Shown: piece by piece, positions 5,141-64,000 of the stretch | How positions within the stretch are numbered: the stretch's first letter is position 1 | Layout: each line of letters opens with the position of its first letter | Source: Ascidia mentula | Lineage: Eukaryota > Chordata > Ascidiacea > Phlebobranchia > Ascidiidae | Length of the DNA stretch: 64,000 nt | Direction: 5' to 3' | NCBI GenBank assembly: GCA_947561715.1 | Contig: OX387198.1 | Span: forward strand, 8,184,001-8,248,000 | Program-made: the position numbers and the translations under genes | The notes under the pieces: generated by a model | Told to the model about the DNA's origin: nothing | Seen by the model: the letters and a program-made list of their open reading frames with translations, nothing else | Database searches by the model: none

Positions 5141-6003
5141 GGGAAACTGTCTTTGGGTTTTAGCTTGGTTGTTTGTTACCGGTTAACATCGTAGTGACAC
5201 CCATGTATTAATTGTTATGTATTTTGTTTGACAATACTGTCTATATTAATTGTATTGCTATCTGCGCAGCTTAAGACAAGCATTGGACAACCAATTTTAC
5301 AACTGCAAAATGTTATCCAGTTATTTTTTTCAACGACTGCAATTGAATTTGAATTTTTCTGTTTCCGAAAGTTGAATTCTTTGACAAGCAACCATGTGTA
5401 ATTATATTAAACGGAGTTTCAGTTTGAAAGAGTACTTTTTATCATGGCACAAGAGTAACTAACACTATGAAATATAGTTTGGGTATATAGCGTGAAAATC
5501 CCTTCTCTCCTGTCTAACTTTCTCTAAAACAACTACTGGATTCACGTAAAGTGCGAATTTTATTAACTACCAGTGATACAAAACAAGGTTGCTACCAACC
5601 GGACACACCCCAGTTGCTGTTAGGAAAGTATAAATAGACGTCTTATTAATGGGTTATATCGCCTATGTCCAATGCACCAAACGACCCCCAAAACGGGGTT
5701 GGGAATAACAGATGGATTGCTTACATTTTCTTCGGCATAATACTTTGCACATGCCGTCAAGCGCTTTACGAGGTAGGACGTTCCATTACTTGATGGATTA
5801 GAATGTTATTATTTGCGTCTATAGGGGCCGGTGTGCCTGTTGCAGTGGGTTCGGAATGTGTGTGGGGGATTAGGTCGGCAAGAAAGTGAAAGTTTTGCAA
5901 CTGCGCGTACGGGCAAGCAGGGGGAACGTGGGGATTAACTCAGCGCCAACAAAGGTTGATGCTCCCCACGTGTTTTAGTAAAAAAGTTTCCGCTCCGAAT
6001 CGA
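5141..6003. other. Convergent intergenic region between KAP1 and the SDR gene
   Basis: KAP1 (plus strand) and the SDR gene (minus strand) end towards each other across about 860 bp. The stretch should hold both 3' untranslated regions. I see no coding exon, repeat or RNA gene in it. Confidence 0.5.
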
Positions 6004-9000
6004 TTACAAGACACCGTTTTCCGCCAGTTGCTTAAGCTGGTCCAGATTGTTCACGGTGGATGTCTTTCCCCGTCCCATTCTCTTCATGGCGACCAGAGAG
6101 ATGGCGTCACCGGCGTCCTGGTTAAAGATCCATTGAAAGGCGGGCGGCATTTGGTCGGGCACCGGCGTCACACCCAGCATGAACGAGATCTGTAATATTA
6201 CAGATATTTATGATTGTTTGCCGCTAGATGGTGCGATTGGTGTAGTTATGGTTCAACAACGAGCGAGTTCGTGTAACGCTGTTTGGCACTTTGAATCGTT
6301 TCTACATTTCATTGCTCCTTTTTTTGCTTCACGTTACTAACAAAGCATGTGTCAAATAATAGTGCAATCAGTATCAACGCAAGTAGATAGTTATCATTGA
6401 AAATTGCACTTGTCTCCCTGATCCCGGTTTAATCATGCTCTCACAAAAGCAACGTTCATATCACAAAGTAACTCACTTCCGTCACACACACTGGATCTTC
6501 GATGTGTTCCTTCAGAGAAACTCGCGCAAGACCCTGAGCGGCCGCCCCACCTACAGGCATGAATCCAGTGCCGGGAATAAGATACATGTCCGCACCACCG
6601 CCTGTAAAATGTGCAACATAAAATAGTTATTGCGACGTTTCAAACTTTTCATGTCAATCGCGTTTGTTTTGCGTTGAAGCATTTCCCACCTTAACAAATT
6701 TGCAGTTTTTGCATCAAGAAAATCAGAAGAATATTCTAGAGTTTATGCATTATAGAAATGTTTGATGCAAAGACCGCAAAGTTGGCGCGGAAGGGTTTCT
6801 TTTTTGAAAAGTAAATATTTGGTTTGTCCTTTTATCTGACGATTTTCATTAACCATAACCTATTTTTAAATGTCACGTTTCGATTGGTCTTATATATGAT
6901 GCTTTGGTGCTTCTTCAGTAATGCTCGTGATCACGCCATCCCCCTCTCATTTATAATTTAATCCGGCGGAAGGCGCAACCAAACACCACAACCTTTGATC
7001 AACTTCAGGGCGATCGTGTGAGCAAGTGACGACACTCACTCCGAGGCGTTTCCACTTCACTGAGTTTCGCCACCGGCCTTTCTGCGCCCCATCCACCGGC
7101 AAGTCAAGCCCCACCGAACAACAATGCCAACCCTGATCCGTGCTCGCTCTTGCGCAACGGAGGATACATTACGTCACGCTACATACCGCAGGGCCGGGAG
7201 CGGGAAGATAAAAAGAGCGGTTTGGGGTTGGCAAAACTATAGGGTTCGCTTGCAGTAAATATTCATGGAACCGTTGCAGTTAAAGTTGAACATAATGTAA
7301 ACGGTCCTTGTTTCGATATTTCTTTGCACACAAAACTCCACCAAATGAGTCAAGCGTAATGTTGATTTTCCGCTGTTGACATAAATATGGTAATAAGCAC
7401 TAGTATTTTTGTGAGTCATTGTGTAGTGCAATTATAAAGCATTGACGTTGCTGCCATTAAATAAATATTTCCTCTGTGTTTGATAAACACAAACGATTCG
7501 TGGTAATGTTTTTATTCACCACCTCGCCTTATCACGACGGCAGAACAAAGGAGTAAAGGGCTTGCAATATCGGGTGCAGAGGGGAAGCAATTAAGTCATA
7601 GCACCCTTTATTGTCCGGCGAAGCTTGACAGAGTGGGCCCACAATATACTCAACTGAACAGCAGCCAAGCATAAATATGGCACGGCGTCAATCGCAGTTT
7701 TTGTCTCGTTCGGGGTAAAGCCATTGGAGGTCGCGTTCCTTCTGCGAATTCCAACTGTCCCGGTCGCAGACAATAGAAAGCGTACGTATTAAAAACTGCC
7801 CCTCCTTTAATTGCTTCTGTGTAGCGATATTAAATCGGTTTCTAATCGCGTCTTCAACTTTTCGCCTTTGCCTATGGCGCGAAATTGGAAACTCATTGGC
7901 TTTAGTATAGCTTATAAGTCACGATAACTCCCATGTCCTCTCAGTGGCCTTTTAGTTGACTCTATTTTCAGCAAGTTGCCGAGAACTGCACAACAAGTGA
8001 ACAAAACAAACGGTATCGAAGTTCCTCGATAAGCCGCAGCACTTGGGTGAGTTTAAGCCATGGAGGTATGCGATACGGGGACGTTAAGTTTTCTTCGGTG
8101 AAGTATTTGGTGACAAAGGGAGCGGTTTGGCAAAAATGCCTTGGGCATAAAAGCCGCGTCAAGGATTATGAGTCAAACATAAACATTTGGATGTTAGTTA
8201 ACATTTGTATGTTAACTATTACAACGGTACTATTTTCCTTGGGTTTTATGCAGATAATCACTGCGATTTGCCAAAATGGCCAGAATACTACTTCAATATT
8301 CTAATCTGTAAACGAACATTACATTCAAAAGATGTCCTAAAGCGGCTAAACCAAAAAGGCATTACCTGTCACAAAAGTGTAGGAACCGGTGGGGTTATTT
8401 TTCACAAGGTCGATGAAGACTTTGTATGCGACAAAAGGCACGACGACAAGTGAATTTAGCGTTGACTCCAATTCAATCTTGCTCTGCTGGACCAAGGGGC
8501 CTTTTTGCCACCACCCAAACCCGATAGCCGATACGATATCATCTACCCTGCCTCCGCATTGACGTAAAACCTGTTGACGAGAAAATTTGGGCGTTGTTTC
8601 CAGGTTCAGTGTAGTTTGTTGCAAATTTACTAAAAGAGATAATCAACATTTTCATATCTTTCCATATTTTAACAGTAGCAGAGAAAGTATTTACCAACAA
8701 TGCAGGAGAGCGTAACACCCACACTGCTTTTAAACATGCTGGTAAAAATCTTTACGAACACATGGATTGTATTTAACAAAGAGAATTTAGCAGTCAAATA
8801 ACCTCGGCTTTTGCTGCCTCCGCTCCTGCTTCGCTTCCGATGTCCCCGAGAATCAGGACGACCTTTTCCGCCATTGGTCCAAGATTACGACGCAGATTCT
8901 CCAGTCGCGTTGGGTCGCGAGAAACAACAGCGACGCGGCCGTAACCCCTGCGCAGAAATCCGGCCACGGTGCCGGAGCCAACGTTGCCGGCCCCGCCCAG

Positions 9001-45890: not shown

Positions 45891-48731
45891 AGGCTTGTTA
45901 CTTCATAACACATGCCAATTCCCGATTTACATCATTTCTTGTAAAGCTCCGATATGCAAAGTATATTTGTGTTCAAGCATGGACGATTGTGCGGTTCAGT
46001 GTCTGGGGCACAACCCTATTTACGAGCTCGGAATAACAAGTCCAAACTTGTCCAATGTTACTATGAGTGACGTGGCGGAAGGTTGCTATCCGACTATTTC
46101 GGGAAACAACACATTGTTCAGTATCAACATCACGGATTGCTCGCCGACAAAAACGGTGAGGCCACACAAAAACGAGTTACCTTACTCTTATAATGGATTG
46201 TATTTGATAAACTATATCGTCTGCAATGCACAAGTGAAAGCGATTTTTTGGACTATTAAATCAGCCATAACACTTGTCGTGGATAACGTTTTTAATGGAA
46301 CTTTCCCACTGTAACAATATATGGATGAGGGAAGGGTAATATTCTAGATAAACATAACCTGGCCAATATTCACTGACCTGAATTATGTTTGACCCAGGTC
46401 AAAAAGTGACTGAAAAAAGATCTAGCTAGTATTTGTGGCACTGGACAAGCTTTTAAACTAACATGCACACAAATTTCCACGTTGTGGTACCTTTCGGTCA
46501 ACGTCGATCTGTTAGTAACCTAAATCGGATAGTGCTCCCGAGTTTATTTGATTGAATTGCATAACTTTCTTACGTTACAAAACCATCTCTCTGTATTATC
46601 GAACAAAAACAGTTTTTCTACTGTTAACGTTTTTGCGCTTTCTTGCAGGGCAATAAAACACACTCTATCTACACGTATGCGATCAACTCGTTCACGAACA
46701 CCAACCTCCAGTCGACCACTTCAAATTCAATCGATATATCGTTCCGGTTCAGCTGCATCTACAATCTTGGAGTCCAAACCTCCCTTTCACTAGGAGGCTC
46801 AGTTTCGCAGTAATTACAATAAATATTACGAAACTATTTGATTTTATTAGGATCCGTTTTTATGCTGAAAAGTGCTTATCCCTTTGTTACCAAATAGCTT
46901 CTTTAACAAATATTACCAAGGAAAAAGAAACATATTTAAAAAAGAATTCAATTTTTTGAAAAAAACATTTTATGCAGGTCGTCAAGTCTGTCTTTTCAAC
47001 CTGTTTCCGTGGAGTTAGCTATTGCAATGGCTCTCTTTAACGACTCAACCTTCTCCGTTCCGATAGTGGGAGACCACAACATCACCGTTCCCGACTATAT
47101 TTACGTGGGCCTTACTTTCACTGATGGAAATGCAAACTATCTCGTCTTGCAGGTATAACCGAGCTAGTCAATCTGAGAAAAGCTTCAGATGATTTGCGAC
47201 AAAAGTGATCCAACATCGAAAAAACAGATATATTCAAACACGATCTGCTCACGCTATAGATATAATAAGATTGCGCATTTTTGGTCTTTTATATTCGTTT
47301 TGTATTGGCACGTATTGGTGAAACACAGGATTTTGTTGACATATCGATAAAAAGGTACTTTCTAAGATAACAGTTTCTATCCATACTAGTAGCAAAACTA
47401 AGTATTCCAAGTAGTTAACGAATGCTCTTCTATTTTAGGCCACAACATGTTGGGCCACTCCTTCCAGCAGCTCCTCAGACGCAAGACAATATTCTATTAT
47501 AGCAAGCGGGTAAGTTTATAGCCTCTTAAAGCTACACAAAACCGAGCATGGATATGCTACAATTTGTAATTTTAGTTGCCCAGCAAACCTAAGTGATCCG
47601 ACTTTGGTGTTGCTCTATGAAAACTACTATTCTTCACAAGCACGATTCGCCCTGCAAGCTTTTACATGGGCAGGTCTCGCTTTAGCCGACCAGAACATTT
47701 ACATACACTGTGATGTTGCGGTCTGCGACACAGTGCTTAACGATACTTGCACAACGAAAGTACGTATACGTGCGAATACTAATGGTCAAATCGTTGGCTG
47801 TGTATTAATGCGGCTACGATTTTTGTTCATGATTGCAGAATTGCGTTGGAAGTTTGGAAGCGCGACGCAAGAGATCGATAGACGGTCATCTAATAACAGT
47901 TGGTCCCCTGAAAGTCGTGGCCGGAGACTCAGCTTGTTCAAAGGTTTGATCTGTTGTGTTTTACCGGTCCCATATACGGAATAAAAACATAGAACTCACT
48001 GTTTCGACATGATACGTACTCCAGTGGTTTTAGCAGCTAAATTTTACTCTGATTTTTAATGCAATGTGGTATTCGCAAACAAGTTTTTTTTTCTGAAACA
48101 GATGAATGGTGGATGTTCCCATATGTGTAGTGAGGACTTTTATGGTTTCGTGCGCTGCATCTGCGGTCCGGGTTTTGTGTTGCTCAGGGACAGGAAATCG
48201 TGTGGATGTGAGTAATATGAAGCAACTATAAGGCGTGATAAATGTTTGAACTGGTGAAAGGGTAAATGTGAAGAACAAGTGGAAACGTTTGCACTTCCGT
48301 AGTGTTAACACGTTGATACGAAACAAGGCTTGGATTTTGTTTTAAAAACTGGTAAAATGATGTTGTTTTCGTAACTACGACCTAAAGCAAACATAACTCA
48401 CCGTGCATCCGATATTGTCGTTGTAAAGATATCAAAACGCACAAAATTCGGTCGATCAGGTTTTATCTTTAGGGGGTTTGAACACAAGCTCTTCTGAAAC
48501 AGGAAGATTTTACTTTCAGTGATTGGAGGACGAGGAGTGAATGAGTTTGATTGGCACGAAGGAGTTCATCTTTCGGCAGGGGAGGATGTGATGGAAAGTT
48601 CAATGAGCGACTACATCTTATTCGCGGCATCATCCCTCATTCTTTTCGCTTGTGTTGGTCTATTGATAGGAATATGCCGCAAGAAAAATCGCTCCAGGAA
48701 AAGAAAATACAAAGGCGCGCACGAGTTGTAG
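45891..48731 (+). CDS. ZP-domain, EGF-like, single-pass membrane protein (5' end uncertain)
   Basis: ZP modules polymerise into extracellular filaments such as egg coats. Exons: about 45891-46155 (start uncertain), 46649-46809, 46978-47152, 47439-47509, 47576-47759, 47839-47943, 48102-48207 and 48520-48731 (TAG); the phases agree. The first exon has ZP-N-like cysteines (DDCAVQCLGHNPIYELG). The ZP-C part shows FRFSCIYNLG, PDYIYVGLTF, CWATPSSSS, then YSSQARFALQAFTW and IYIHCDVAVCD. RRKRS in the next exon is a furin-type site. After it comes a six-cysteine EGF module built around NGGCSHMC and CICGPGFVL, then a helix (LFAASSLILFACVGLLIGI) and a basic tail. No signal peptide is visible, so upstream exons or an alternative start are missing. 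An EGF module between the cleavage site and the membrane is unusual. Its 3' half is echoed in the decayed copies at 55150-56050 and 62230-63130. Confidence 0.85.
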
Positions 48732-49196
48732 ATGATGTGATGTTTTTTTTCCTAACGAATCAATCACGCTCACACTGAAGCAATGAGTTTGAAACAGACA
48801 CTTAATATTACAGACAAAACGGTTTTCATTGCAAAACTGCCTTCCATAGATTTCTACATGTAAATGAATCACATCTTTCGTTCTGCCTTCGTTCAATATT
48901 ATTGTCAGATATTTTGTACAGCAGTTGTAGACGCATGTTATATACAAAATGTTGGCGTTATATCATCGATATCTTTTGTTCAATTATATGTACTGTACAG
49001 TGTGAACAATCACAAGTAAACATGTCTGCAAGAAAACGAGGTTCAACTACAAACGTGATGAAATTTTAAATCTGCGCAGACAAGTTGACCCAACCGACTA
49101 CTGAAATGCGTAAATTGAGCAAGACTTCAAGCGACTCAATCGGCATTAACATTGATCACAAGCAACATTTGAGACATTAGTAAAACCAAAAAGAAT
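48732..49196. other. Convergent spacer between the ZP gene and receptor copy 1
   Basis: About 465 bp hold the 3' ends of the two facing genes. A part near 48850-48890 is similar to sequence near 56080-56120 in the next unit, so the spacer was part of the duplicated segment. No other feature is seen. Confidence 0.55.
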
Positions 49197-52100
49197 TTAC
49201 ACTGCTGACGTAACCGGGGATCGAGCTAAACCTTCTTCCGTTGAAGGCTGCTTTGCCACAGTCCTTACTTTAGTAGCGCTGCCCCTCACCAGCCGAACAA
49301 AAAACCTTGCCGCCAATGGCAAAGTGTTGGAATAGATAATGGGATTAAGGGCGCTATTCACAGGCAAAAGAATAATGGCCGAAAAAGCGTAGGCATATGG
49401 TGGTATAACCCCTCCTGACATGCTGATAAAAGTCATCACACAAATCGGCATCCAACAACAAAAGTCAGTTCCGATGAGAAAGGAGATTTTGCGCTGCATC
49501 GCCTTGTTGTCGGTTTGCTTGGCGCTGCGGACCGCGTTACCTCGTGTTGAATGTCTGTAAATGGCCAAGTAGGAGGCCAGGATGTACAGCAAGGCTACGA
49601 AATTGAAGGTGATGACCACTGCAGAATATGAACCAAATATCGACCCGTCACCGGGAAGACGAAAAAACTTTGGAATGCAAACACTGCTGGCGCTGTAAAA
49701 GCCGTGATAGCCGAGTGATTTGGGAGCAAGACTTGGAAAGTGACTTAGTAAAAAGCTGTTTAGAGCGTTCCAATCGTCGGGGACATTGTCGCGACTGCTG
49801 TTTGTTGGGACAAGGGCGTTTAAACGCAAAGCAAATCGTTGTAACTCATCAAATTTCACTGCTCCGCGTTGAAAGTACGGGTTACTCTGTATGAGCATTT
49901 CGCTGACCATCTGCCGCGAGAGGGCGGGCGAGAGTGGAAGCAATGATGTGATAAGAGAGAAGATCCAAAGCATCGACAACCAGACGAAAACCCATCTTAC
50001 GCGTACTTCCCTACTCTTGAATGGCCGAAAAACGCCATACAAGCGATAAGAGGTCAAACATATGAGTGTTAGAACTGAAGCCTCGCTTGAAAGGGTTGTC
50101 ATCACTCCAACAGAGTTGCAAGTTCCGCTGGCTCGCCACAACCGATCACGCAGGCAATACTGGGAAGAAAACTGAACCGACTTGACGCCTATAATCACTA
50201 GACAGACACCCATAAGAAAATCTGCCAAGGCCAGGTTCAAAATAAGGATGTTGTTGATTACAGCGACTGGGGACACGCGCTTGTTATGGCGAACAGAGTA
50301 CAGATACTTGCATGTGATTACCATAACAGCACTATTGCCTATTAACGCCAGAAATGCTGAAATCCAGACAAAGATGCGCAGTCCTGGTGATGCAATCATG
50401 TCAGATTTTGAAGAGACAGCGTGAGTTGCTTCAAACTCTTCAGGACATTCGTCGGAAAGATCGGTGCAGTCAGTTATACCGTCGAGCACCTGTAAGTATT
50501 TAATCAGATGTAGAAACAAAAATGTGTAGAAAACACACAACAGAGGTTATTTCTTACTTTGCTTCTTGAGACGAACAAGGGGTCGCCGTTGTTGCAGTAA
50601 AAGTGTGTTTTGGAACTACAGTTCATTTCATCTTTGGCATCACCAACACAATCCACCACACCATCGCAAACTTTTAAAAGTGCCACGCTAACCTTTGGTC
50701 GTGGACCTGAAACATAAAATTAAAACTACTGGTATTGTTTGTCGGAACTTTGCCATTAACAATGTCATTTCTTTTGGCAACTTCACTTTCAGTTCTAAGC
50801 CACTTTATCATCTGTTAGTATTACAAGAATTTTGCTATTCGTGTCCATCTCTGCAAATATACCAGCTAGCTTCATTGATACATAACATAAACACACTAGT
50901 TTTTACCATGAGTCCACTCAACCGTTCCTGCATTGCAACCGAATCTGGTACTTTCGCAGTCTTCCTCGTCTTCTGCTTTACTGCATTCACTTACTCCGTT
51001 GCATATCGACAAACCAGCCACATATTCTGCGAAATTGCCACATAATCTCGCAGTCTCGTTGCCATTAACCGGAAGAAGTCGTTTCATAAAACTTGGAAGC
51101 TGTACCTAGAGGTGTAAAAGGGCTTTAAAGTAACCAGCTTACAAACGTTACAAAAATTACCTTCTTTAGAGGAATGGTATCGCAAACTTTTGGTCTAACG
51201 CTGCAATTTGCCTCCGCCGAGCATTCGTCCTCAAACAATAAGCACTCAACTTTTCCATCACACCTACAACAAAGTAAGAAATTTGTGGACCTTTACTTTG
51301 AAAAAAATGTCGCTATGCATGTACCCAGCAACGTCATCAACGTGACTCAACGCACCTTGCTGCATTTCCCTGGAAAGCTTCCTTTCCGATGGTCGTGAGG
51401 TTGAACATGGATAGGATAATCCGGAATAATTTAGGAATAGGAAAGCAGGAAAAGTTTTTAGGTGACTGTTTGGGTTCTACAGGAGTCGGTTGTGAGCAAA
51501 ACTTCTCATCAATCCCACTAGCTGAACAGTCTTTATTGCCATCACATACCGCTCCCGGTTTCAAACACTTGCCGTCGCACTCGAGTTGTCCACTTTTGCA
51601 CTTTCTGCATGCATTGTTTTGGTAACAAATCTTTGAACATATTTCGCGTTGCGCCGAAGTATTAAAACTACTGGAACAAAGGCATTCGTCCGAGAGATCG
51701 GGACAGTCGATCACCCCATCACAAATTTGCCTTTTGGCGATGATAGTGCGGTTGTCAAGACAAAGCGAACAGACAAATACACCATCTACAAAACACACAT
51801 CCGATGCGTCATCACACCAGGGTAGGCTGTCACGCAGAGACCACTGCGGAATAGAACAATATTTCTTGTGTGTTTTGAGGCTTGACACTTGTCTGAAGCA
51901 TTTGAAACCAGGCAAAGAGGTGATGTCGTCTTTTTCACCTTCGCAATCAGTGAAGGCGTCACACGAATAATCCCACGACAGACACTTTTTCTTGTGCTCA
52001 GGACAACGAAACATTCGCGGGTCAGAACACGACTCGATTTCATCGCTGCAATCCCCACAGTTGTCAACGCCGTCACACATCATGTTTTCGGGAATGCACC

Positions 52101-53525
52101 GTCTTTGGTTAGCACAAAGAAACATGTCCTTGGCACATGACCCGGTCATGTTGCGAATAACCTCGTCGCTCCCGTCAGGGCAGTTTCTTTCACCGTCGTT
52201 GAGCCATTGCTTTGGAATACATCGCTCCGTTCCCATGCAACGAAACTCATTTTCTTTACATTCAAGTGGCCTTTGTTCGTCAGCTTTATCTGGACAATCA
52301 TTAAATCCGTCCATGACCCTGTACCTCAGTAAGCATCTCCCAGTACTCGGGCAACGGAATTCAGTTTTGGTGTAACACGCGACAAAAGGCTTATCCTCAT
52401 CGCTAGAGGACCCAGGACAGTCAATGTTGTTGTCCATGACCCATTCGCGGGGAATACAGCGTCCAGCGAAAGTATTGTTCTTTCGATCGTGTGGTGACTG
52501 GCAGCGAAATTCAGAAGACGTACAGTTAGAAAGAGATGACTCTTCATCACTGCCATCAGTCAAGGACAAACTGTCACAGTCTCGTTTGCCATCCATAACC
52601 ATCCAACGCGGAATGCAACGTCTTGTTTTGTCGCAAGTGAATTCTGCGTGAAAAGATACTGTGACTAGGGTTTAGAGGTTATAATAAGTCGTTATAAGTC
52701 TTTTTCTAGTTAGCAGAAAATGTTTGCCAAATGAAATAGGGTTGGTTGTAATGTTATACTCAGTTTAAATTTAAGTAACGTGTTTTAACAGAAACATAAA
52801 TTTGTTGAACTGTAAGTGTCCCCACCTTCCCCCTCTCTGCAGCGGATCATGACATTCATTTTGTGTTTACATCCATCCACTGATGACCTTCTCGCCACAC
52901 ACTTCGATGTTAAACGACACGTAAACTCGGCATCAGTGCAGTTCAGCACTAGGTTAAACAGTAAACAGTTTATATGTGTTGATCTATCCAGTAAAAACAC
53001 TGTTTTCAATCCACCAATAAAACTGCATATTTTGCTATTACTATACTGCTTCTATCTGCCTTTCGTCAAGAAAATACAACAAAAATACAACCACTTAAAA
53101 ACGTACCCGCATTCGTTTTCAAAATTTAATCACATTTTCTCAAAACTCACGTGCTCTTTGGTCGCTTCCATCTCCGCAATCATCATCAAAATCCCGGACT
53201 TGATGGCGCTCTTTGCATTTGGAATTGTCGCATCGAAAGAACCCATCCTCTGGACGACAAGAGTCATCTCGCCTATCAAACTTCATTGTGTGACTCCAGT
53301 AATATTCCATTGTTGACTTTCCTGTACAACAATAGTCGGGACTGTTTATCCAATATTCGTAAAGAGTATTCTACCGCAAAATAATATTTCTTTATTTTGT
53401 TTAGTTTAGTTTTTGCAGCACTTTTAAATTTTGTTTTTGATTCTGTTTCCATACGTACCGGTACAAGTTGATAGTAGTAGAAATATAATAACTAAACCGA
53501 CAAATCCACACAAACTAAGTTTCAT
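49197..53525 (-). CDS. LDLa-repeat seven-transmembrane receptor, relaxin-receptor/GRL101-like, copy 1
   Basis: A rhodopsin-type receptor with a large extracellular region. Eight exons join in phase: 53459-53525, 53151-53321, 52871-52948, 51356-52658, 51161-51263, 50907-51105, 50558-50706 and 49197-50489. The ATG at 53525 opens a signal peptide (GLVIIFLLLSTCTG). About a dozen LDLa-like modules follow, most in the 1.3-kb exon, several with the calcium loop (NCPDGSDE, DCPDLSDEC). A single LRR-like piece lies near FNLTTIGKEAFQG. The last exon holds all seven helices: IGNSAVMV in helix 1, NLALADFLMG in helix 2, TDFCCWMPI in helix 6 and PVNSALNPIIYS in helix 7. These resemble the relaxin receptors and the mollusc receptor GRL101. 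The helix-3 end reads LTSYRLYGVFRP, so the acidic residue of D/E-R-Y is missing. The ligand is unknown. It faces the ZP gene tail to tail. Confidence 0.9.
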
Positions 53526-55149
53526 TTTGGGTTTCTGACAAAATTGCTTAACAATTTGTTGAACAACAATTAATCGAAACTGGTATCTATTTTTAATAGA
53601 ATTAACACACAAGAAGAAAAAAGCGGACGAGTTATGACTGATCGAGCGCTACTTCACTTTGCGTGTCATCGCAATTCCGGCCCAAACTTCCACATCATCA
53701 TATTTATTTTAAGCTTTCGCCTTCGTCTAACTATACAGTGAGAGACAAATTCTTTACTGGTCCCCCAAAATGCAAATCTACTCATGCGCTGCATTTAACT
53801 GGATTTATATAAAAAGACAACAACACTTTTAACATTAAATAGAATCTTCTCATCCCTTTAATTGTTGTTTTTTCAAATCACCGACCCTCGAAAGTTGTTT
53901 CAAACAGTTACCAATACGATCGTGTGAACGGGTTGAGAAGCTCTGTTCCTAATAACATACCAAAGGTTATGACTGAGTGTAAACCGACTTTACATAGGAT
54001 GCAGAAACATTTTAATTCAGATTTAAACACGGTTTGTGGTTGTTTACTGTGTTGTATGACAGTCGCATGAAGAACTGTATTGGATAACGATGGATAAATT
54101 TTATTTTAGGCAAATGTGATATCGAAGGACTGCAAACTGTCATAGTTGTACACTGTGGCAACTAAATTTGACGTCTGGCTTGAATGTTTCTGAAAGCTTC
54201 CCTAACTTTGTCATAAGTCATTGCATGATTGTAAGGGACTGTCAACAATGAGTCAAGTTCGTGAGGACCACTTTTTCCGTGGACGAAGTAAATCGAAACT
54301 ATTTGTAGAAACGTCGCAATCTCTCGGCGTCAAGAATCATCTCGTCAAGATATTGTGTCAAAAAACGAGTGTAGTGTCATTGCAACACTCGGCTAAACGG
54401 GTTTTGCGCTATCACGTTATTGAAAACAAAAGCAACCACAAAGTTATTTAAAGATTTTAATCACTTTTCAAACAACTTCTTCCAACCACTGTTGGGCATC
54501 ACGTCCTTAAAGGGTGCTCGGTACTGAGATGTTTTCCCACATTTTTTATGTCGTGAAATGTAAATCCTACGGACGAAAATTTTGTTTGATTAGTTACTTA
54601 GTTACAATAAACAACAAACAATAATGGTTTTGAGAAATAATTTCTTTTCCAAAACTGAATAACTTATTGCTATGAAACTGTTTTCCTCTACCGCCTTGAG
54701 AAAAAACTTCCATTTTTCCATATGTACAGATCCTACCACCCATGGATTCTGCAACCTCAAAATTCTAAATCCCGAAACAGGACTTCGTTCCGCATATTGC
54801 TTGGGATAAAAGGGTTTGTTCAAAGTCGAGTTCTTTGTAATGTCGGAACGTTGAGAATCTTTCCAGTGTTACTTGTGAAATAATATAGCGTTCAGGTTTC
54901 GTGACTTAAATACACTTAATTTCTGGGTTTTGAGTACACAATAATCTATTGTTTTAATGACGGTCTGAAATATTTATAGCTGTATGCTGGCGTCGGGCTG
55001 CGCCGCAATCGACTGAATAACACACGAATACAAACCTCACTGCTTAATTCAAAATTACTTTTACTAACTAAAATCATTCGGAGTTAATACAAATCTTACC
55101 CAAAACACAAGTTTTAAATAAGCATGTAAGATGGGATTGTTTTATATTT

Positions 55150-56050
55150 TTAGCAATTCGATCCTGTCACTTTTACATTAACTGCGCCTTCATGGTCTGC
55201 CATACAATGTTAAACGATACTAACACAACAAAAATACGCATACCTGTTACTCGTTGCAAGATGCTTTTTCACCTACTATGTGTCAATGCAACCGATTGCC
55301 ATCCTATGGCAGATCGTGATTTTCTGCAAAGGAATCGCTGTCACATGAACGCCAGGCTCGATAACATTTGTGATTTTATTGGTGTTAATGTCATACAAAT
55401 GATGTTATTGGGAGTTTGTAAAAAAAATCAACACAATTTTGTTTGTGCAAAACAAGATGTATTCCTGTAACTTATAACACGATCAAAACTTAGTGAACAA
55501 TCGATAAATTCTTATTCATGTTGACATAGAGGATTAGATGTCGCATTTGTTGCAAAACTTCTGTTATTTCAAATGAACGGTGGGTGTGGCCATACTTGCT
55601 GCGAGGCCTTTTCGGATACGTGCGCTGTATCTGCGGACCGGGTTATGTGTTGCACAGGGATAGGAAATCATGTAGATGTGAGTAATACCAGGAAACACGT
55701 GTCGTATCAGAAGAATCAGTGAAAGGTTAAATGGTGAATGCAAAATATAGTGCTTTCGTAACTGAAGGAGTCTATAGGCAGAAGTAAAACAAACAAGCGT
55801 TTAAAACAAACAAAACACCAGGCCAGTATTGACCATCATGTGATCACGATACATACTTTTAAATACACAACACGTTAAGCAATAAGTTACTGACTTGGTA
55901 GTTTTGACTACAGTGAACAAGTTAGGTTGGAATAATGGAGTTTATCTATTAACTAGAGAGGATGCAGTGAAAAGTTCCACGATCAGTTGATAGGATTGTG
56001 TCACAAGAAAATTCGCTACATACGAATGTGCGAACGAGTTACAGAAGATA
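55150..56050 (+). pseudogene. Decayed 3' half of the ZP-EGF gene, copy 2
   Basis: Three remnants keep the order of the intact gene at 45891-48731. Near 55153-55250 is the ZP-C exon end (TGTTAAACGATACTAACAC against TGCTTAACGATACTTGCAC). At 55573-55677 is the EGF exon, including its GTGAGTAAT donor, but with a one-base loss and lost cysteines. Near 55925-56020 is the membrane and tail exon with its helix deleted. The ZP-N and early ZP-C exons and the furin-site exon are absent. It lies downstream of receptor copy 2 in the same relation as the intact pair, so it came with the receptor duplication and then decayed. Confidence 0.82.
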
Positions 56051-56378
56051 ATTTTCACTTGAAATTTTCTTTTAGCTATTTCTGCATGTAACTAAATAAC
56101 ATCTCACGTTTTTCTTTTGTCAAATATCGTTAGAAGAACCGTAGCATGCCATATGCCTTATGGGGTAACATTTATAAGGCAACAAGTCGACAAGAAAATG
56201 TTGTGTTGATAATTTTAAGCTTCAGTGTAGCCGGGTTGGAAATTCAATCTAACAAGCAAATACCACAACCCATGTGATCCACTGGAAACACAACCTGGCT
56301 GTTGCTTCCATTTGAGTCGATGGCGTCGCATTCGTTTTTGCAGGGAATTTTTTTCAATATTTAAGTCGACGACGTAAC

Positions 56379-59300
56379 TCAGGATCGGACTAAACCTTCT
56401 TCCGTTGATGGCTGCTTTGCCACAGCTCTTACTTTAGTAGCGCTGCCCCTCACCAGCCGTACAAAAAACCTTGCCACTAATGGCAAAGTGTTGGAATAGA
56501 TAATGGGGTTAAGGGCGCTATTGACAGGCAAAAGAATAATGGCCGAAAAGGCGTAGGCATATGGTGGTATAAACCCTCCTGACATGCTGATAAAAGTCAT
56601 AACACAAATCGGCATCCAACAACAAAAGTCAGTTCCGATGAGAAAGGTGATTTTGCGCTGCATCGCCTTGTTGTCGGTTTGCTTGGCGCTGCGGGCCGCG
56701 TTACCTCGTGTTGAATGTCTGTAAATGGCCAAGTAGGAGGCCAGGATGTACAGCAAGGCTACGAAATTGAAGGTGATGACCACTGCAGAATATGAACCAA
56801 ATATCGACCCGTCACCGGGAAGACGAAAAAACTTTGGAATGCAAACACTGCTGGCGCTGTAAAAGCCGTGATAGCCGAGTGGTTTGGGAGCAAGACTTGG
56901 AAAGTGATTTAGTAAAAAGCTGTTTAGAGCGTTCCAATCGTCGGGGACATTGTCGCGACTGCTGTTTGTTGGAACAAGGGCGTTTAAACGCAAAGCAAAT
57001 CGTTGTAACTCATCAAATTTAACTGCTCCGCGTTGAAAGTACGGGTTACTCGGGATCAGCATTTCGGTGACCATCTGCCGCGAGAGGGCGGGCGAGAGTG
57101 GAAGCAATGATGTGATGAGAGAGAAGATCCAGAGCATCGTCAACCAGACGAAAACCCATCTTACGCGTACTTCCCTACTCTTGAATGGCCGAAAAACGCC
57201 ATACAATCGATATGAAGTCAAACATATGAGTGTTAGAACTGAAGCCTCGCTTGAAAGGGTTGTCATCACTCCAACAGAGTTGCAAGTTCTGCTGGCTCGC
57301 CACAACCGATCACGCAGGCAATACTGGGAAGAAAACTGAACCGACTTGACGCCTATAATCACTAGACAGACACCCATAAGGAAATCTGCCAGGGCCAGGT
57401 TCAAAATAAGGATGTTGTTGATTACAGCGACTGGGGACACGCGCTTATAACGAACAGAGTACAGATACTTGCATGTGATTACCATAACAGCACTGTTGCC
57501 TAGTAACGCCAGAAATGCTGAAATCCAGACAAAGACGCGCAGTTCTGGTGATGCAATCATGTCGAATTTTGAAGAGACAGCACGAGTCGCTTTGAACTCT
57601 TCAGGACATTCGTCAGAAAGATCGGTGCAGTCAGTTATACCGTCGAGCACCTGTAAGTTTTTCATTGGATTTAGAAAACGTGTGGAAAAACACACAACTG
57701 AGTATATTTTTTTTACTTTGCTTCTTGAGACGAACAAGGGGTCGCCGTTGTTGCAGTAAAAGTGTGTTTTGGAACTACAGTTCATTTCATCTTTGTCATC
57801 ACCAACACAATCCACCACACCATCGCAAACTTTTAAAAGTGCCACGTTAACTTTAGGTCGTGGACCTAAAACATAAAATTAAAACTACTGATATTGCTGT
57901 TCTAAGCCACTTTATAATCTGTTAGTATTACAAGAATTGTGATATTCGTGTCCATCTCTGCAAATAGCTTCATTGATACATAACATAAACACACTAGTTT
58001 TTACCATGAGTCCACTCAACCGTTCCTGCATTGCAACCGAATCTGGTACTTTCGCAGTCTTCCTCGTCTTCTCCTTTGCTGCATTCACTTACTCCGTTGC
58101 ATATCGACAAACCAGCAACGTATTCTGACAAGTTGCCACATAATCTCGCAGTCTCGTTGCCATTAAGAAGTCGTTTCATAAAACTTGGAAGCTGTACCTA
58201 GAGGTGTAAAAAGGCCGTTAAAGTAACCAGATTACAAACGTTACAAAAATTACCTTCTTTAGAGGAATGGTATCGCAAATTTTTGGTCTAACGCTGCAAT
58301 TTGCCTCTTTCGAGCACTCGTCCTCAAAAAGTAAGCACTCAACTTTTCCATCACACCTACAACAAAGTAAGAAATTTGTGGACCTTAACTTTGAACAATA
58401 TGGCGCTATGCATGTACCCAGCAACGTCATCAACGTGACTCAACGCACCTTGCTGCATTTTCCTGGAAAGCTTCTTTTCCGATCGTCGTGAGGTTGAACA
58501 TGGACAAGATAATCCGAAATGATTTAGGAATAGGAAAGCAGGAAAAGTTTTTAGGTGACTGTTTGGGTTCTACAGGAGTCGGTTGTGAGCAAAACATCTC
58601 ATCAATCCCACTGGCTGAACAGTCTTTATTGCCATCACATACCGCTCCCGGCTTTGAACACTTGCCGTCGCACTCGAGTTGTCCACTTTTGCACTTTCTG
58701 CATGCATTGTTTTGGTAACAAATCTTTGCACATATTTCGCGTTGCGCCGAAGTATTAAAACTACTGGAACAAAGGCATTCGTCCGAGAGATCGGGACAGT
58801 CGATTACCCCGTCACAGATTTGCCTCTTAGCGATGATAGTGCGGTTGTCAAGACAAAGCGAACAGACAAATACACCATCTACAAAACACACATCCGATGC
58901 GTCATCACACCAGGGTAGGCTGTCACGCAGGGACCACTGCGGAATAGAACAATATTTCTTGTGTGTTTTGAGGCTTGACACTTGTCTGAAGCATTTGAAA
59001 CCAGGCAAAGAGGTGATGTCGTCTTTTTCACCTTCGCAATCAGTGAAGGCGTCACACGAATAATCCCACGACAGACACTTTTTCTTGTGCTCAGGACAAC
59101 GAAACATTCGCGGGTCAGAACACGACTCGATTTCATCGCTGCAATCCCCACAGTTGTCAACGCCGTCACACATCATGTTTTCGGGAATGCACCGTCTTTG
59201 GTTAGCACAAAGAAACATGTCCTTGGCACATGATCCGGTCATGTTGCGAATAACCTCGTCGCTCCCGTCAGGGCAGTTTCTTTCACCGTCGTTGAGCCAT

Positions 59301-60618
59301 TGCTTTGGAATACATCGCTCCGTTCCCATGCAACGAAACTCATTTTCTTTACATTCAAGTGGCCTTTGTTCGTCAGCTTTATCTGGACAATCATTAAATC
59401 CGTCCATGACCCTGTACCTCAGTAAGCATCTCCCAGTACTCGGGCAACGGAATTCAGTTTTGGTGTAACACGCGACAAAAGGCTTATCCTCATCGCTAGA
59501 GGACCCAGGACAATCAATGTTGTTGTCCATGACCCATTCGCGGGGAATACAGCGTCCAGCGAAAGTATTGTTCTTTCGATCGTGTGGTGACTGGCAGCGA
59601 AATTCAGAAGACGTACAGTTAGAAAGAGATGACTCTTCATCACTGCCATCAGTCAAGGACAAACTGTCACAGTCTCGTTTGCCATCCATAACCATCCAAC
59701 GCGGAATGCAACGTCTTGTTTTGTCGCAAGTGAATTCTGCGTGAAAAGATACTGTGACTAGGGTTTAGAGGTTATAATAAGTCGTTATAAGTCTTTTTCT
59801 AGTTAGCAGAAAATGTTTGCCAAATGAAATAGGGTTGGTTGTAATGTTATACTCAGTTTAAATTTAAGTAACGTGTTTTAACAGAAACATAAATTTGTTG
59901 AACTGTAAGTGTCCCCACCTTCCCCCTCTCTGCAGCGGATCATGACATTCATTTTGTGTTTACATCCATCCACTGATGACCTTCTCGCCACACACTTCGA
60001 TGTTAAACGACACGTAAACTCGGCATCAGTGCAGTTCAGCACTAGGTTAAACAGTAAACAGTTTATATATGTTGATCTATCCAGTAAAAACACTGTTTTC
60101 AATCCACCAATAAAACTGCATATTTTGCTATTACTATACTGCTTCTATCTGCCTTTCGTCAAGAAAATACAACAAAAATACAACCACTTAAAAACGTACC
60201 CGCATTCGTTTTCAAAATTTAATCACATTTTCTCAAAACTCACGTGCTCTTTGGTCGCTTCCATCTCCGCAATCATCATCAAAATCCCGGACTTGATGGC
60301 GCTCTTTGCATTTGGAATTGTCGCATCGAAAGAACCCATCCTCTGGACGACAAGAGTCATCTCGCCTATCAAACTTCATTGTGTGACTCCAGTAATATTC
60401 CATTGTTGACTTTCCTGTACAACAATAGTCGGGACTGTTTATCCAATATTCGTAAAGAGTATTCTACCGCAAAATAATATTTCTTTATTTTGTTTAGTTT
60501 AGTTTTTGCAGCACTTTTAAATTTTGTTTTTGATTCTGTTTCCATACGTACCGGTACAAGTTGATAGTAGTAGAAATATAATAACTAAACCGACAAATCC
60601 ACACAAACTAAGTTTCAT
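56379..60618 (-). CDS. LDLa-repeat seven-transmembrane receptor, copy 2
   Basis: The same eight-exon gene as copy 1: 60552-60618, 60244-60414, 59964-60041, 58449-59751, 58254-58356, 58005-58197, 57717-57865 and 56379-57650. The first 310 or so residues of the large LDLa exon are identical to copy 1; its last part has five differences. The membrane exon differs far more, at about 20 positions, for example HN replaced by Y after helix 1 (YSVRYKRVSP) and changes in the long extracellular loop 2 (EMLIPSNPYF, FLLNHF). The exon beginning at 58197 has lost two codons relative to copy 1 (KRLLNGNE). The reading frame ends earlier than in copies 1 and 3, after EEGLVRS. All splice sites are kept, so it should be functional. 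The helix-3 motif is again LTSYRLYG. Confidence 0.9.
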
Positions 60619-62229
60619 TTTGGGTTTCTGACAAAATTGCTAAACAATTTGTTAAACAACAATGAATCGAAATTGGTATCTATTTTTAATAGAATTAACA
60701 CACAAGAAGAAAAAAGCGGACGAGTTATGACTGATCGAGCGCTGCTTCACTTTGCGTGTCATCGCAATTCCGGCCCAAACTTTCACATCATCATATTTAT
60801 TTTAAACTTTCGCCTTCGTCTAACTATACAGTGAGAGACAAATTTTTTACTTGTCCCCCAAAATGCAAATCTACTCATGCGCTGCATTTAACTGGATTTA
60901 TATAAAAAGACAACAACACTTTTAACATTAAATAGAATCTTCGCATCCCTTTAATTGTTGTTTTTTCAAATCACCGACCCTCGAAAGTTGTTTCAAAAAG
61001 TTACCAATACGATCGTGTGAACGGGTTGAGAAGCTCTGTTCCTAATAACATACCAAAGATTATGACTGAGTGTAAACCGACTTTACAGGATGCCGTAACA
61101 TTTTAATTCAAATTTAAACACGGTTTGTGGTTGTTTACTGTGTTGTATGACGGTCGCATGAAGAACTGTATTGGATAACGATCGATAAATTTTATTTTCG
61201 GCAAATGAGATATTGAAGGACTGCAAACTGTCACAGTTTCTTAATGCACACTGTGGCAACCAATTTGACGTCTGTCTGCGAATGTTTCTAAAAGCTTCCC
61301 TAACTTTTCCATAAGTCATTGCATGGTTGTAAGGGACTGTCAACAATGAGTCAAGTTCGTGAGGAGCACTTTTTTCCGTGGACGAAGTAAATCGAAACTG
61401 TTTGTAGAAACGTCGCAATCTTCCGGCGTCAAGAATCATCTCGTCAAGATATTGTGTCAAAAAACGAGTGTAGTGTCATTGCAACACTCGGCTAAACGGG
61501 TTTTGCGCTATCACGTTGTTGAAAACAAAAACAACCACAAAGTTATTTAAAGATTCCAATCACTTTTCAAACAACTTCTCCCAACCACTGTGGGGCATCA
61601 CGTCCTTAACTATAAAAAGGGTGCTCGGTACTGAGATGTTTTCCCACATTTTTTATGTCGTGAAATGTAAATCCTACGGACGAAAATTTTGTTTGATTAG
61701 TTACTTTGACAATAAACAACAAACAATAATGGTTTTGACAAATAATTTCTTTGCCAAAACTGAATAACTTACTCTACCGCCTTGAGAAAAAACTTCCCTT
61801 CATCCATATATACAGATCCTACCACCCATGGATTCTGCAACCTCAAAATTCTAAATCCCGAAACAGGACTTCGTTCCGCATATTGCTTGGGATAAAAGGG
61901 TTTGTTCAAAGTCGAGTTCTTTGTAATGTCGGAACGTTGAGAATCTTTCCAGTGTTACTTGTGAAATAATATAGCGTTCAGGTTTCGTGACTTAAATACA
62001 CTTAATTTCTGGGTTTTGAGTACACAATAATCTATTGTTTTAATGACGGTCTGAAATATTTATAGCTGTATACTGGCGTCAGGCTGCGCCGCAATCGACT
62101 GAATAACACACGAATACAAACTTCAGTGCTTAATTCAATTACTTTTACTAACTAAAATCATTCGGGGTTAGTACAAATCTTACCCAAAACACAAGTTTTA
62201 AATACGCATGTAAGATGGGATTGTTTTAT

Positions 62230-63130
62230 ATTTTTAGCAATTCGATCCTGTCACTTTTACATTAACTGCGCCTTCATGGTCTGCCGTACAATGTTAAACG
62301 ATACTTACACAACAAAAATACGCATACCTGTTACTCGTTGCAAGATGCTTTTTCACCTACTATGTGTCAATGCAACCGATTGCCATCCTATGGCAGATCG
62401 TGATTTTCTGCAAAGGAATCGCTGTCACATGAACGCCAGGCTCGATAACATTTGTGATTCTATCGGTGTTCATGTCATACAAATGATGTTATTGGGAGTT
62501 TGTAAAAAAAATCAACACAATTTTGTTTGTGCAAAACAAGATGTATTCCTGTAACTTATAACACGATCAAAACTTAGTGAACAATCGATAAATTCTTATT
62601 CATGTTGACATAGAGGATTAGATGTCGCATTTGTTGCAAAACTTCTGTTACTTCAAATGAATGGTGGATGTGGCCATACTTGCTGCGAGGCCTTTTCGGA
62701 TACGTGCGCTGTATCTGCGGACCGGGTTATGTGTTGCACAGGGATAGGATATCATGTAGATGTGAGTAATACCAGGAAACACGTGGCGTATCAGAAGAAT
62801 CAGTGAAAGGTTAAATGGTGAATGCAAAATATAGTGCTTTCGTAACTTAAGGAGTCTATAGGCAGAAGTAAAACAAACAAGCGTTTAAAACAAACAAAAC
62901 ACCAGGCCAGTATTGACCATCATGTGATCACTATACATACTTTTAAATACACAACACGTTAAGCAATAAGTTACTGACTTAGTAGTTTTGACTACAGTGA
63001 ACAAGTTAGGTTGATATGATGGAGTTTATCTATTTACCGGAGAGGATGCAGTGGAGAGTTCCACGATCAGTTGATAGGATTGTGTCACAAGAAAATTCGC
63101 CACATACGAATGTGCGAACGAGTTACAGAA
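62230..63130 (+). pseudogene. Decayed 3' half of the ZP-EGF gene, copy 3
   Basis: The three remnants match those in unit 2: ZP-C exon end near 62236-62340, EGF exon at 62657-62762, and tail exon remnant near 63009-63100. They share the same losses as unit 2, including the one-base loss in the EGF exon, so the decay began before units 2 and 3 separated. Confidence 0.8.
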
Positions 63131-63445
63131 GATAATTTTCACTTGAAATTTTCTTTTAGCTATTTCTGCATGTAACTAAATAACATCTCACGTTTTTCTT
63201 TTGTCAAATATCGTTAGAAGAACCGTAGCATGCCATATGCCTTATGGGGTAACATTTATAAGGCAACAAGTCGACAAGAAAATGTTGTGTTGATAATTTT
63301 AAGCTTCAGTGTAGCCGTGCTGGAAATTCAATCTAACAAGCAAATACCAGAACCCATGTGATCCACTGGAAACACAACCTGGCTGTTGCTTCCATTTGAG
63401 TCGATGGCGTCGCATTCGTTTTTTGCAGGTAATTTTTTTCAGTAT

Positions 63446-64000
63446 TTAAGTCGACGACGTAACTCGGGATCGAACCAAACCTTCCTCCGTTGATGGCTGC
63501 TTTGCCACAGCTCTTACTTTAGTAGCGCTGCCTCTCACCAGCCGAACAAAAAACCTTGCCACTAATGGCAAAGTGTTGGAATAGATAATGGGGTTAAGGG
63601 CGCTATTGACAGGCAAAAGAATAATGGCCGAAAAGGCGTAGGCATATGGTGGTATAAACCCTCCTGACATGCTGATAAAAGTCATCACACAAATCGGCAT
63701 CCAACAACAAAAATCAGTTCCGATAAGAAAGGTGATTTTGCGCTGCATCGCCTTGTTGTCGGTTTGCTTGGCGCTGCGGACCGCGTTACCTCGTGTTGAA
63801 TGTCTGTAAATGGCCAAGTAGGAGGCCAGGATATACAGCAAGGCTACGAAATTGAAGGTGATGACCACTGCAGAATATGAACCAAATATCGACCCGTCAC
63901 CGGGAAGACGAAAAAACTTTGGAATGCAAACACTGCTGGCGCTGTAAAAGCCGTGATAGCCGAGTGGTTTGGGAGCAAGACTTGGAAAGTGATTTAGTAA
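63446..64000 (-). CDS. LDLa-repeat seven-transmembrane receptor, copy 3 (partial, runs off window)
   Basis: Only the 3' part of the membrane exon is inside the window; the frame is open to the window edge. It encodes extracellular loop 2 through the C-terminus: NHFPSLAPKPLGYHG, helix 5, TDFCCWMPI in helix 6 and PVNSALNPIIYS in helix 7. It is close to copy 2 (RKITFLIG, GGFIPPYAY) but keeps the longer tail, ending LVRSRVTSST. The rest of the gene should lie beyond 64000. Confidence 0.88.
   Translation of the reverse strand, partial: LLNHFPSLAPKPLGYHGFYSASSVCIPKFFRLPGDGSIFGSYSAVVITFNFVALLYILASYLAIYRHSTRGNAVRSAKQTDNKAMQRKITFLIGTDFCCWMPICVMTFISMSGGFIPPYAYAFSAIILLPVNSALNPIIYSNTLPLVARFFVRLVRGSATKVRAVAKQPSTEEGLVRSRVTSST

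Follow-up and report, generated by a model that had tools for sequence, protein, structure and literature searches.

LDLa receptors and ZP proteins in ascidians

In Ciona, the LDLRR-GPCRs form a lineage-specific expansion of receptors with several N-terminal LDL-A repeats, no leucine-rich repeats (LRRs) and a seven-transmembrane (7TM) region that is nearest to that of the relaxin receptors (BMC Evol Biol 2008, PMC2396169). In the 2008 survey, they were described without a known ligand (PMC2396169). The RXFPs carry only one LDLa module, and GRL101 additionally contains LRRs (PMC2396169). Ascidian egg-coat ZP proteins include CiVC57 and HrVC70, the latter derived from the precursor HrVC120 (PMC9265791). 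A literature search found no papers on GPCRs of Ascidia mentula.

The window analysed here is a stretch of 64,000 nucleotides of A. mentula chromosome 2 (contig OX387198.1, positions 8,184,001 to 8,248,000), and array positions are given in window coordinates. The locus is a clear but fairly ordinary receptor cluster that has been reshuffled by unequal exchange.

Structure of the array

An earlier note on this DNA had described an intact ZP-EGF gene opposite an LDLa 7TM receptor that recurs twice downstream at about 7.1 kb, each time beside a decayed ZP 3' half that had travelled with it. The intact pair was confirmed: the ZP gene I1 and the receptor R1 lie tail to tail, and both are supported by Pfam. 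Direct repeats start at 49207, 56371 and 63456 (spacing 7164 and 7085 bp; identity 94 % over 300 bp and 95.8 % over 7.7 kb), and every 7TM gene in them lies opposite ZP-like sequence. The period of the earlier note thus stands but its count does not: comparison of the flanking sequence beyond 64000 revealed three whole receptor copies, three remnants and a copy of the 3' half of I1 (I2). The array holds six tandem receptors (R1 to R6) and reaches approximately 88.9 kb, three of the six lying wholly past position 64000. Joint transport of the ZP piece and the receptor is supported. The order of the six units is I1-R1, D2-R2, D3-R3, (D4, truncated)/I2-R4, D5-R5 and D6-R6, all of which are tail-to-tail ZP/receptor arrangements. 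The features are as follows.

45891..48731, plus strand: I1, intact ZP gene (sequence, frames, Pfam)
49197..53525, minus strand: R1, receptor of eight exons (GT/AG junctions, open frame, Pfam)
55169..56049, plus strand: D2, ZP remnant (colinear local alignment to I1; lesions)
56379..60618, minus strand: R2, receptor (open frame; 5' end placed by offset from R1)
62253..63133, plus strand: D3, ZP remnant (colinear local alignment to I1; lesions shared with D2)
63456..64000, minus strand: 3' end of R3, which goes on to approximately 66549 past the window (by offset)
68687-70422, beyond the window: I2, copy of the I1 3' half (94.5 % over 1768 bp)

The truncated D4 abuts, at the junction 68686/68687, a 5.7-kb segment that repeats 47441-53149 from its start (96.8 % identity).

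The receptor genes

R1 is an eight-exon gene of 1137 amino acids, more than the 7TM exon alone. A hydrophobic N-terminus, read by eye as a signal peptide, is followed by LDLa repeats and a rhodopsin-type 7TM region (Pfam Ldl_recept_a, PF00057, E 1.2e-35; 7tm_1, E 2.7e-18). The ectodomain contains at least two tandem LDL-A repeats; five stretches pass PF00057 on their own and eight LDLa-like stretches were found by a simple text motif which misses others, for which reason the modules are not counted exactly here. Relaxin receptor 1 (RXFP1) was the best of the 86 solved-structure sequences that match the 7TM region (E 2.5e-25). No LRR family was detected by Pfam at E 0.01 or better in spliced R1, the one copy scanned whole. 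A receptor of the LRR type, as in GRL101 or the RXFPs, was rejected on this ground, and R1 does not show the single LDLa module followed by multiple LRRs that marks type C LGRs. Set against the family description, the receptors are, to judge from their sequence, LDLRR-GPCRs, a known ascidian kind with LDLa repeats, no LRR and a relaxin-receptor-like 7TM region.

Five of the six copies have open frames, the exception being R3, which is broken by a 1.2-kb internal deletion at 64264/64266. The R2 open reading frame encodes 1128 amino acids, nine fewer than R1 overall, with its stop six codons ahead of the R1 stop. Whole-gene dN/dS was 0.17-0.27 in all ten pairs among R1, R2, R4, R5 and R6 (the broken R3 was left out of the dN/dS and dS comparisons), and the receptors are under purifying selection. 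The receptors most likely still work as cell-surface receptors; by analogy with the family, the LDLa ectodomain may capture a large extracellular protein or lipoprotein, and the 7TM region would signal via G proteins.

Two further observations were made on these genes. In R6, the exon-4 acceptor is absent at the position used in R1 and the frame is open only with an acceptor 21 bases further on, which was counted against the preferred history given below. R1 and R4 differ in the 7TM alone by six non-synonymous versus one synonymous change, an excess that was likewise counted against the preferred reading.

The ZP gene and its remnants

The exons of I1 lie at 45891-46155, 46649-46809, 46978-47152, 47439-47509, 47576-47759, 48102-48207 and 48520-48731, the donor of the second (46810) having been read directly from the sequence. 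They encode a ZP module (ZP-C, PF00100, E 4.7e-26), one EGF-like module (FXa_inhibition, E 4.3e-8) and a C-terminal TM helix which, like the basic tail of the last exon, was identified by eye; I1 thus encodes a ZP module with a TM anchor. No 5' exons were found upstream of 45891 when the sequence was read by eye. The gene is a putative extracellular-coat or matrix protein gene.

D2 and D3 align in unchanged order with the 3' end of I1 and its ZP-C, EGF and TM exons (best local E 5e-27 for D2 and 6e-28 for D3), and the similarity of the region 55150-56050 to the ZP exons, on which the earlier note had relied, is significant. Chance similarity was rejected on these E values and the colinear order. 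D2 contains parts of the ZP-C, EGF and TM/cytoplasmic exons, with a frameshift, lost splice sites and a TM deletion. The one-base loss in the EGF exon that had been noticed in both remnants of the window is present there and in the three beyond it (5/5), the EGF-exon acceptor is lost in the same five, and a 52-bp deletion in the TM exon occurs in all four remnants that extend that far. With lesions present, exon pieces colinear and intervening sequence kept, the remnants are duplicated rather than processed pseudogenes. The one-base loss common to all five argues that ZP decay preceded their multiplication.

When the first remnant was used as the query in a whole-genome DNA search, which skips very common words, all 12 of the listed matches lay inside the array, the query included. 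At the DNA level, no other ZP gene thus matches the remnants better, and their derivation from another ZP gene was rejected, despite the presence of at least 141 ZP-C matches in the genome. The view that the receptors were kept is borne out by the five open frames and the dN/dS values. Of the six copied ZP pieces, five are dead, and I2 is a nearly unchanged ZP 3' half.

Exchange between the units

Receptor clusters, such as those of odorant receptors, commonly undergo concerted evolution with unequal crossover. In the present array, the introns of R6 are only 47-55 % identical to those of R1 from the first to the sixth, while intron 7 is 97 % identical (66/68 bases), with the break at the border of intron 6 and exon 7. 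In pairs with R6, dS is 0.39-0.42 in exons 1-7 versus 0.05-0.08 in the 7TM, and the 7TM differs from the rest in all four such pairs (Fisher p 9e-14 to 1e-19). Controls were four of the six pairs among R1, R2, R4 and R5: no difference was seen for R1-R2 (p 0.14) and R2-R5 (p 1.0), and the 7TM was more alike in R4-R5 (p 0.024) and R1-R4 (p 1e-6). R1-R2 runs in the opposite direction, with a dS of 0.093 in the 7TM and 0.061 in the ectodomain.

Towards the 3' end of the receptor gene, ten sites split the I-flanked R1 and R4 from the D-flanked R2 and R5, and of these sites R3 is D-type at ten and R6 at nine. In the gapless columns of the four full-length units U1, U2, U4 and U5, the pattern U1+U2 was found 113 times (89 in one tract), U1+U4/U2+U5 24 times and a third kind ten times. 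These conflicting patterns are clustered, with 14 runs versus 56.5 expected and none of 5000 shuffles reaching 14. The lesions and tracts of the remnants also yield groupings that contradict one another. No one succession of duplications can therefore account for them, and exchange between units must be included. The pattern U1+U4/U2+U5 is the one predicted by a clean block duplication; its being in the minority was counted against the preferred history, so that the case for the block duplication comes chiefly from the junction and from I2, on the assumption that the units exchanged sequence afterwards.

The split between the I and D lineages (JC distance 0.22-0.26 in the EGF exon and 0.43-0.45 in the three ZP exons) and that of the R6 ectodomain (dS approximately 0.4) are of similar age, the equality being approximate only.

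Probable history of the array

The locus is probably an LDLRR-GPCR tandem array that grew by unequal exchange and carried along fragments of its convergent ZP neighbour, through an old duplication of the pair, loss of one ZP copy, conversion and duplication of a block of approximately 21 kb. An old duplication of the ZP-receptor pair would have given rise to the ZP lineages I and D and, among the receptors, to the array type and the lineage seen in the R6 ectodomain. In ZP-D, the acceptor of the EGF exon, a single base and the greater part of the TM helix would then have been lost, after which misaligned exchange within the similar 7TM exons may have multiplied the D-bearing units. Conversion would have kept the receptors alike, overwriting exons 7-8 of one partner to yield the mosaic R6. 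Tandem duplication of the block 47441-68686 would have produced I2 and the D4/I2 junction, and a deletion would finally have broken R3.

The order of events given in the earlier note was simpler: the I1-R1 pair was duplicated, the ZP half decayed, and the unit of receptor plus remnant was duplicated again. The one-base loss common to the remnants and the 7.1-kb period agree with it, and decay before the remnant-bearing units multiplied is retained here. A recent origin from 47576-48731 is not: D2, D3, D5 and D6 differ from I1 at 132-145 of 405-435 exon bases (32.6-33.6 %) and D2 at 465 of 869 aligned non-coding bases (54 %), whereas the six pairs among U1, U2, U4 and U5 show differences of 2.7-6.8 % in the receptor introns, roughly the level expected of a ZP copy that had decayed after the receptor duplication. 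Intact I1 is not the recent parent of the remnants, and decay after the receptor duplication is not supported. The conflicting lesion groups and the second, near-identical ZP 3' half at 68687 also speak against this history, which is unlikely; it is contradicted as to age, and to rescue it by homogenisation of all receptors after a much older duplication is to adopt the preferred model.

A false haplotypic duplication, in which the assembly joined in tandem two haplotypes that each read I-R-D-R-D-R, would explain why this order is present twice, and the difference of approximately 3 % between I1-R1 and I2-R4 is possible between haplotypes. The junction, however, brings together non-homologous sequence with few shared bases and offers the assembler no long overlap, the ZP 5' half left of 47441 occurs once in the genome (a dispersed repeat of approximately 90 bp aside), and a fourth remnant closes the left half while the right half shows none. 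No N occurs in the 154 kb examined and the assembly, made from HiFi reads, has a QV of 64.9 (PMC11109543). An error of this kind is rather improbable. A simple doubling of one unit, against which the earlier note had warned, is opposed by the lack of N together with the differences of several per cent and the private indels among the units.

That the ZP protein and the receptor are a co-selected functional pair, such as ligand and receptor or gamete recognition partners, is very improbable: the tail-to-tail linkage, the sperm-egg binding role of ascidian ZP proteins with EGF repeats (PMC9265791) and the I1-I2 exon changes (8 synonymous in 111 sites, 8 non-synonymous in 387) would fit, but five of the six copied ZP pieces are dead, whereas five of the six receptors are open. 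In addition, among the ZP matches listed for chromosome 2, the one nearest to any of the 36 other listed family receptor hits is 92.7 kb away, so that none falls within 50 kb; the two lists give minimum numbers. The pairing therefore looks like hitch-hiking, and a functional tie was rejected as a strong claim.

Under the preferred history of unequal exchange with hitch-hiking ZP pieces, the locus preserves a clean, naturally occurring record of receptor-cluster growth. The dead, unrelated neighbour serves as a neutral tag: measured by it, the receptors seem much younger than the duplication from which they first arose, since continuing exchange overwrites them again and again.

Possible homogenisation of the 7TM exon

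A more tentative proposal is that in Ascidia LDLRR-GPCR clusters conversion may repeatedly homogenise the 7TM exon, whereas divergence continues in the LDLa part and the flanks, so that sensing varies and the output is common to all. The clearest example for this reading is R6; R1-R2 of the main array, as given above, goes against it. A second cluster at 9.65-9.79 Mb has at least 23 listed copies, 17 of which were compared. Among 12 close copies, in effect the tightest group of a family tree that held five main-array copies (R3 excluded), third positions differ by 8 % in the 7TM versus 20 % in the LDLa exon; LDLa shows the greater difference in 53 of 66 pairs, and in 55 of 66 the divergence of the downstream flank is more than threefold that of the 7TM. 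The pattern weakens with all 17 copies, which differ by 25 % in the 7TM versus 31 % in LDLa (LDLa larger in 79 of 136 pairs; flank more than threefold in 60 of 136). The identity plateau over the 7TM is 80-87 % for the 17 copies versus 92-97 % for the 12, and in both sets identity climbs again within the LDLa exon, reaching approximately 94 % 1.6 kb upstream. If true family-wide, 7TM-centred homogenisation would single out the LDLRR-GPCRs as receptors that diversify in sensing and share their output.

Comparison with known systems

The array shares with the Ciona LDLRR-GPCR family several LDL-A repeats, the lack of LRRs, an INSL3/relaxin-receptor-like 7TM region and lineage-specific expansion; it differs in that six copies stand in tandem with ZP remnants between them, and in that the species belongs to another ascidian family. 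A relaxin-receptor-like 7TM region and LDLa modules are also found in the type C LGRs, snail GRL101 and vertebrate RXFP1/2, but R1 showed no LRR and has several LDLa modules where the RXFPs have one. Like CiVC57 and HrVC120, I1 combines ZP and EGF-like modules, and a C-terminal TM segment is also present in CiVC57; the egg-coat proteins have a long EGF array before the ZP module (PMC9265791), whereas I1 has one EGF-like module after it, more modules being possible in its 5' exons. Tandem copies, mosaic exchange and broken copies are shared with receptor clusters under concerted evolution, from which the Ascidia array differs in that it carries a fragment of a convergent, unrelated neighbour gene.

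Structure of the receptor array

Six copies of a receptor of the LDLRR-GPCR type (R1 to R6, in units U1 to U6) were found by self-comparison of the window (bases 8184001–8248000 of contig 2, C2) and neighbouring sequence, with starts at 49207, 56371, 63456, 70423, 77601, and 84793 (positions beyond 64000 continue the numbering of the window). An earlier note had described a receptor with two downstream copies; the repeats were confirmed, but their number rises to six copies in total once the sequence beyond 64000 is included.

Main features of the array and of a second cluster on chromosome 2 (C2)
53525 to 49197, minus strand: receptor R1, 8 exons, 1137 amino acids
45891–48731, plus strand: intact ZP gene I1, at least 7 exons, encoding a ZP module, a single EGF-like module, and a TM helix
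68687–70422: I2, the 3' half of a ZP gene only, its last three exons with open frames
C2:9645060–9791636: a bigger cluster of receptors from this family, at least 23 matches

The R1 protein has a hydrophobic N-terminus followed by LDLa repeats and a rhodopsin-type 7TM region, of which relaxin receptor 1 is the nearest match among solved structures; its gene is arranged tail to tail with I1. R1, R4, and R5 have 1137 open codons and GT/AG borders, R2 has 1128 with a stop 6 codons ahead of that of R1, and the R6 frame is open provided that exon 4 begins at an acceptor 21 bases past the R1 position. R3 misses 1.2 kb, from exon 5 through the middle of exon 8. A genome search gave at least 94 matches to the R1 7TM exon; among the matches listed, only the six array copies exceeded 90 % identity, the next being at 51 %. 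The five open array copies formed one group in a tree (support 1.000), separate from 24 other family members examined. Whole-gene dN/dS was 0.17–0.27 in all 10 pairs of open copies and the receptors have therefore been kept, which bears out the earlier proposal that the receptor was retained while its ZP neighbour decayed. The exception is the 7TM region of R1 versus R4, which taken alone shows 6 nonsynonymous changes against 1 synonymous change.

The upstream region of the receptor in unit 2 contains a 130-amino acid open frame (61083–61475, minus strand), for which a Pfam scan gave no match. Another tandem array, with a period of about 12.5 kb and main pieces 91–98 % identical in DNA, occupies window positions 1–8316 and C2:8164001–8184000; its ORF at 1961–2776 is a borderline match to KAP P-loop NTPases (E 5e-4; 19.8 bits, cut-off 20).

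Intact and decayed ZP pieces

The ZP pieces facing the receptor 3' ends are of two kinds, namely I (I1 and I2) and the decayed remnants D2 (55169–56049), D3 (62253–63133), D4 (truncated), D5, and D6. I1 and I2 are 94.5 % identical across 1768 bp, with 8 changes in 111 synonymous and 8 in 387 nonsynonymous sites; I2 may still be constrained, although it has no 5' exons. A stretch of some 90 bp inside an I1 intron (about 46433–46524) is a dispersed repeat present at 37 or more further places on several contigs.

Alignment showed that all five remnants lack one base of the EGF exon and have lost the acceptor of that exon, and that the four extending far enough all lack 52 bp of the TM exon. The ZP-C exon donor is altered in D2 and D3 and deleted in D4, D5, and D6. 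These units therefore multiplied only after the ZP piece had died, in agreement with the earlier view that decay preceded multiplication of the remnant-bearing units. Other differences do not fit a single tree: D2, D3, and D6, unlike D5, share an 11-bp loss; D4, D5, and D6 have a loss of 57 bp in common; and TM-exon substitutions pair D2 with D5 and D3 with D6.

I1 differs from the four longer remnants at 132–145 of 405–435 aligned exon bases, and from D2 at 465 of 869 aligned noncoding bases. Among U1, U2, U4, and U5, in contrast, receptor introns differ by 2.7–6.8 %; their upstream stretch differs by 3.3–10.3 %. The split between I and D is therefore far older than the receptor copies look. 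This excludes the intact gene as a recent parent of D2 and D3, as the earlier note had it, save if the receptors were homogenised later.

Exchange among the units

The 147 two-against-two sites in U1, U2, U4, and U5 fall into 14 runs versus 56.5 expected, a clustering attained in none of 5000 shuffles. Identity runs went beyond any of 2000 shuffles in five of the six unit pairs (p 0.0005), the U2-U5 run being weaker (p 0.016).

Mosaic structure is clearest in R6. Compared with R1, its exons 7–8 and intron 7 are 97–98 % identical, exons 1–6 are 72–90 % identical, and introns 1–6 only 47–55 %. Its synonymous divergence is 0.39–0.42 in exons 1–7 versus 0.05–0.08 in the 7TM region (Fisher p 9e-14 to 1e-19). 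Coding selection alone does not account for this pattern, as conservation extends to intron 7, a short one of 68 bp. No uniform 7TM-versus-ectodomain trend was seen in Fisher tests on four pairs of the other copies: R1-R2 and R2-R5 were not significant, R4-R5 was weak (p 0.024), and R1-R4 was strong (p 1e-6).

The 9.65–9.79 Mb cluster was compared as 12 closely related copies and then as 17 copies. Identity among the 12 was 92–97 % in the 7TM exon, about 76 % at 0.6–1.0 kb upstream, again 87–94 % in the LDLa exon (1.2–1.6 kb upstream), and 44–68 % in the downstream flank; the contrast between the 7TM exon and its flanks was less marked among the 17. Third-position differences in the 7TM and LDLa exons were 8 and 20 % among the 12 copies and 25 and 31 % among the 17, where the LDLa exon differed more than the 7TM in only 79 of 136 pairs. 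These figures hint at 7TM-centred homogenisation among recent copies, which is not established for the whole receptor family.

Proposed history

From the copies, lesions, divergences, mosaics, and junctions, all observed directly, we infer the following order and mechanism. A single old duplication of a ZP-receptor pair would have produced two pairs, one joining I to an array-type receptor and the other joining D to an R6-type receptor; the I/D split and the R6 receptor split are of similar, large age. ZP-D would then have died, and misaligned exchange within the 7TM region could have produced the repeated receptor-plus-D units. At the 3' end of the receptor, ten sites distinguish the I-flanked copies (R1, R4) from the D-flanked ones (R2, R5); R3 carries the D-type state at all ten and R6 at nine of them.

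The sequence from 68687 is a copy of 47441–53149 (96.8 % identity) that abuts the truncated D4, with only a few bases shared at the junction, which may be read as tandem duplication of a 21-kb block. Sites uniting U1/U4 and U2/U5 number 24 versus 113 for U1/U2 and U4/U5 (89 of the 113 in one tract), and this majority counts against a clean block duplication. The excess would be ascribed to exchange after the block was duplicated.

Relation to known systems

In conclusion, the array is real and well preserved; its receptors are of a known kind, and fragments of a ZP gene have hitch-hiked with them. A literature search for Ascidia mentula and G protein-coupled receptors found no paper, and LDLRR-GPCRs were named in one, so the locus appears to be undescribed in the literature searched. 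Sequence context gives no sign that the ZP gene and receptor work together, since none of the 36 other family receptor matches among those listed for chromosome 2 has a listed ZP match within 50 kb. The ZP gene resembles ascidian egg coat proteins in its ZP, EGF, and TM parts (PMC9265791). The array receptors share the domain plan of the Ciona LDLRR-GPCRs, for which PMC2396169 gives 14 members with LDL-A repeats and without LRR, EST matches mostly from blood cells, and lipoproteins or large protein complexes as proposed ligands. The array is thus of interest as a record of concerted evolution rather than as a new kind of system.
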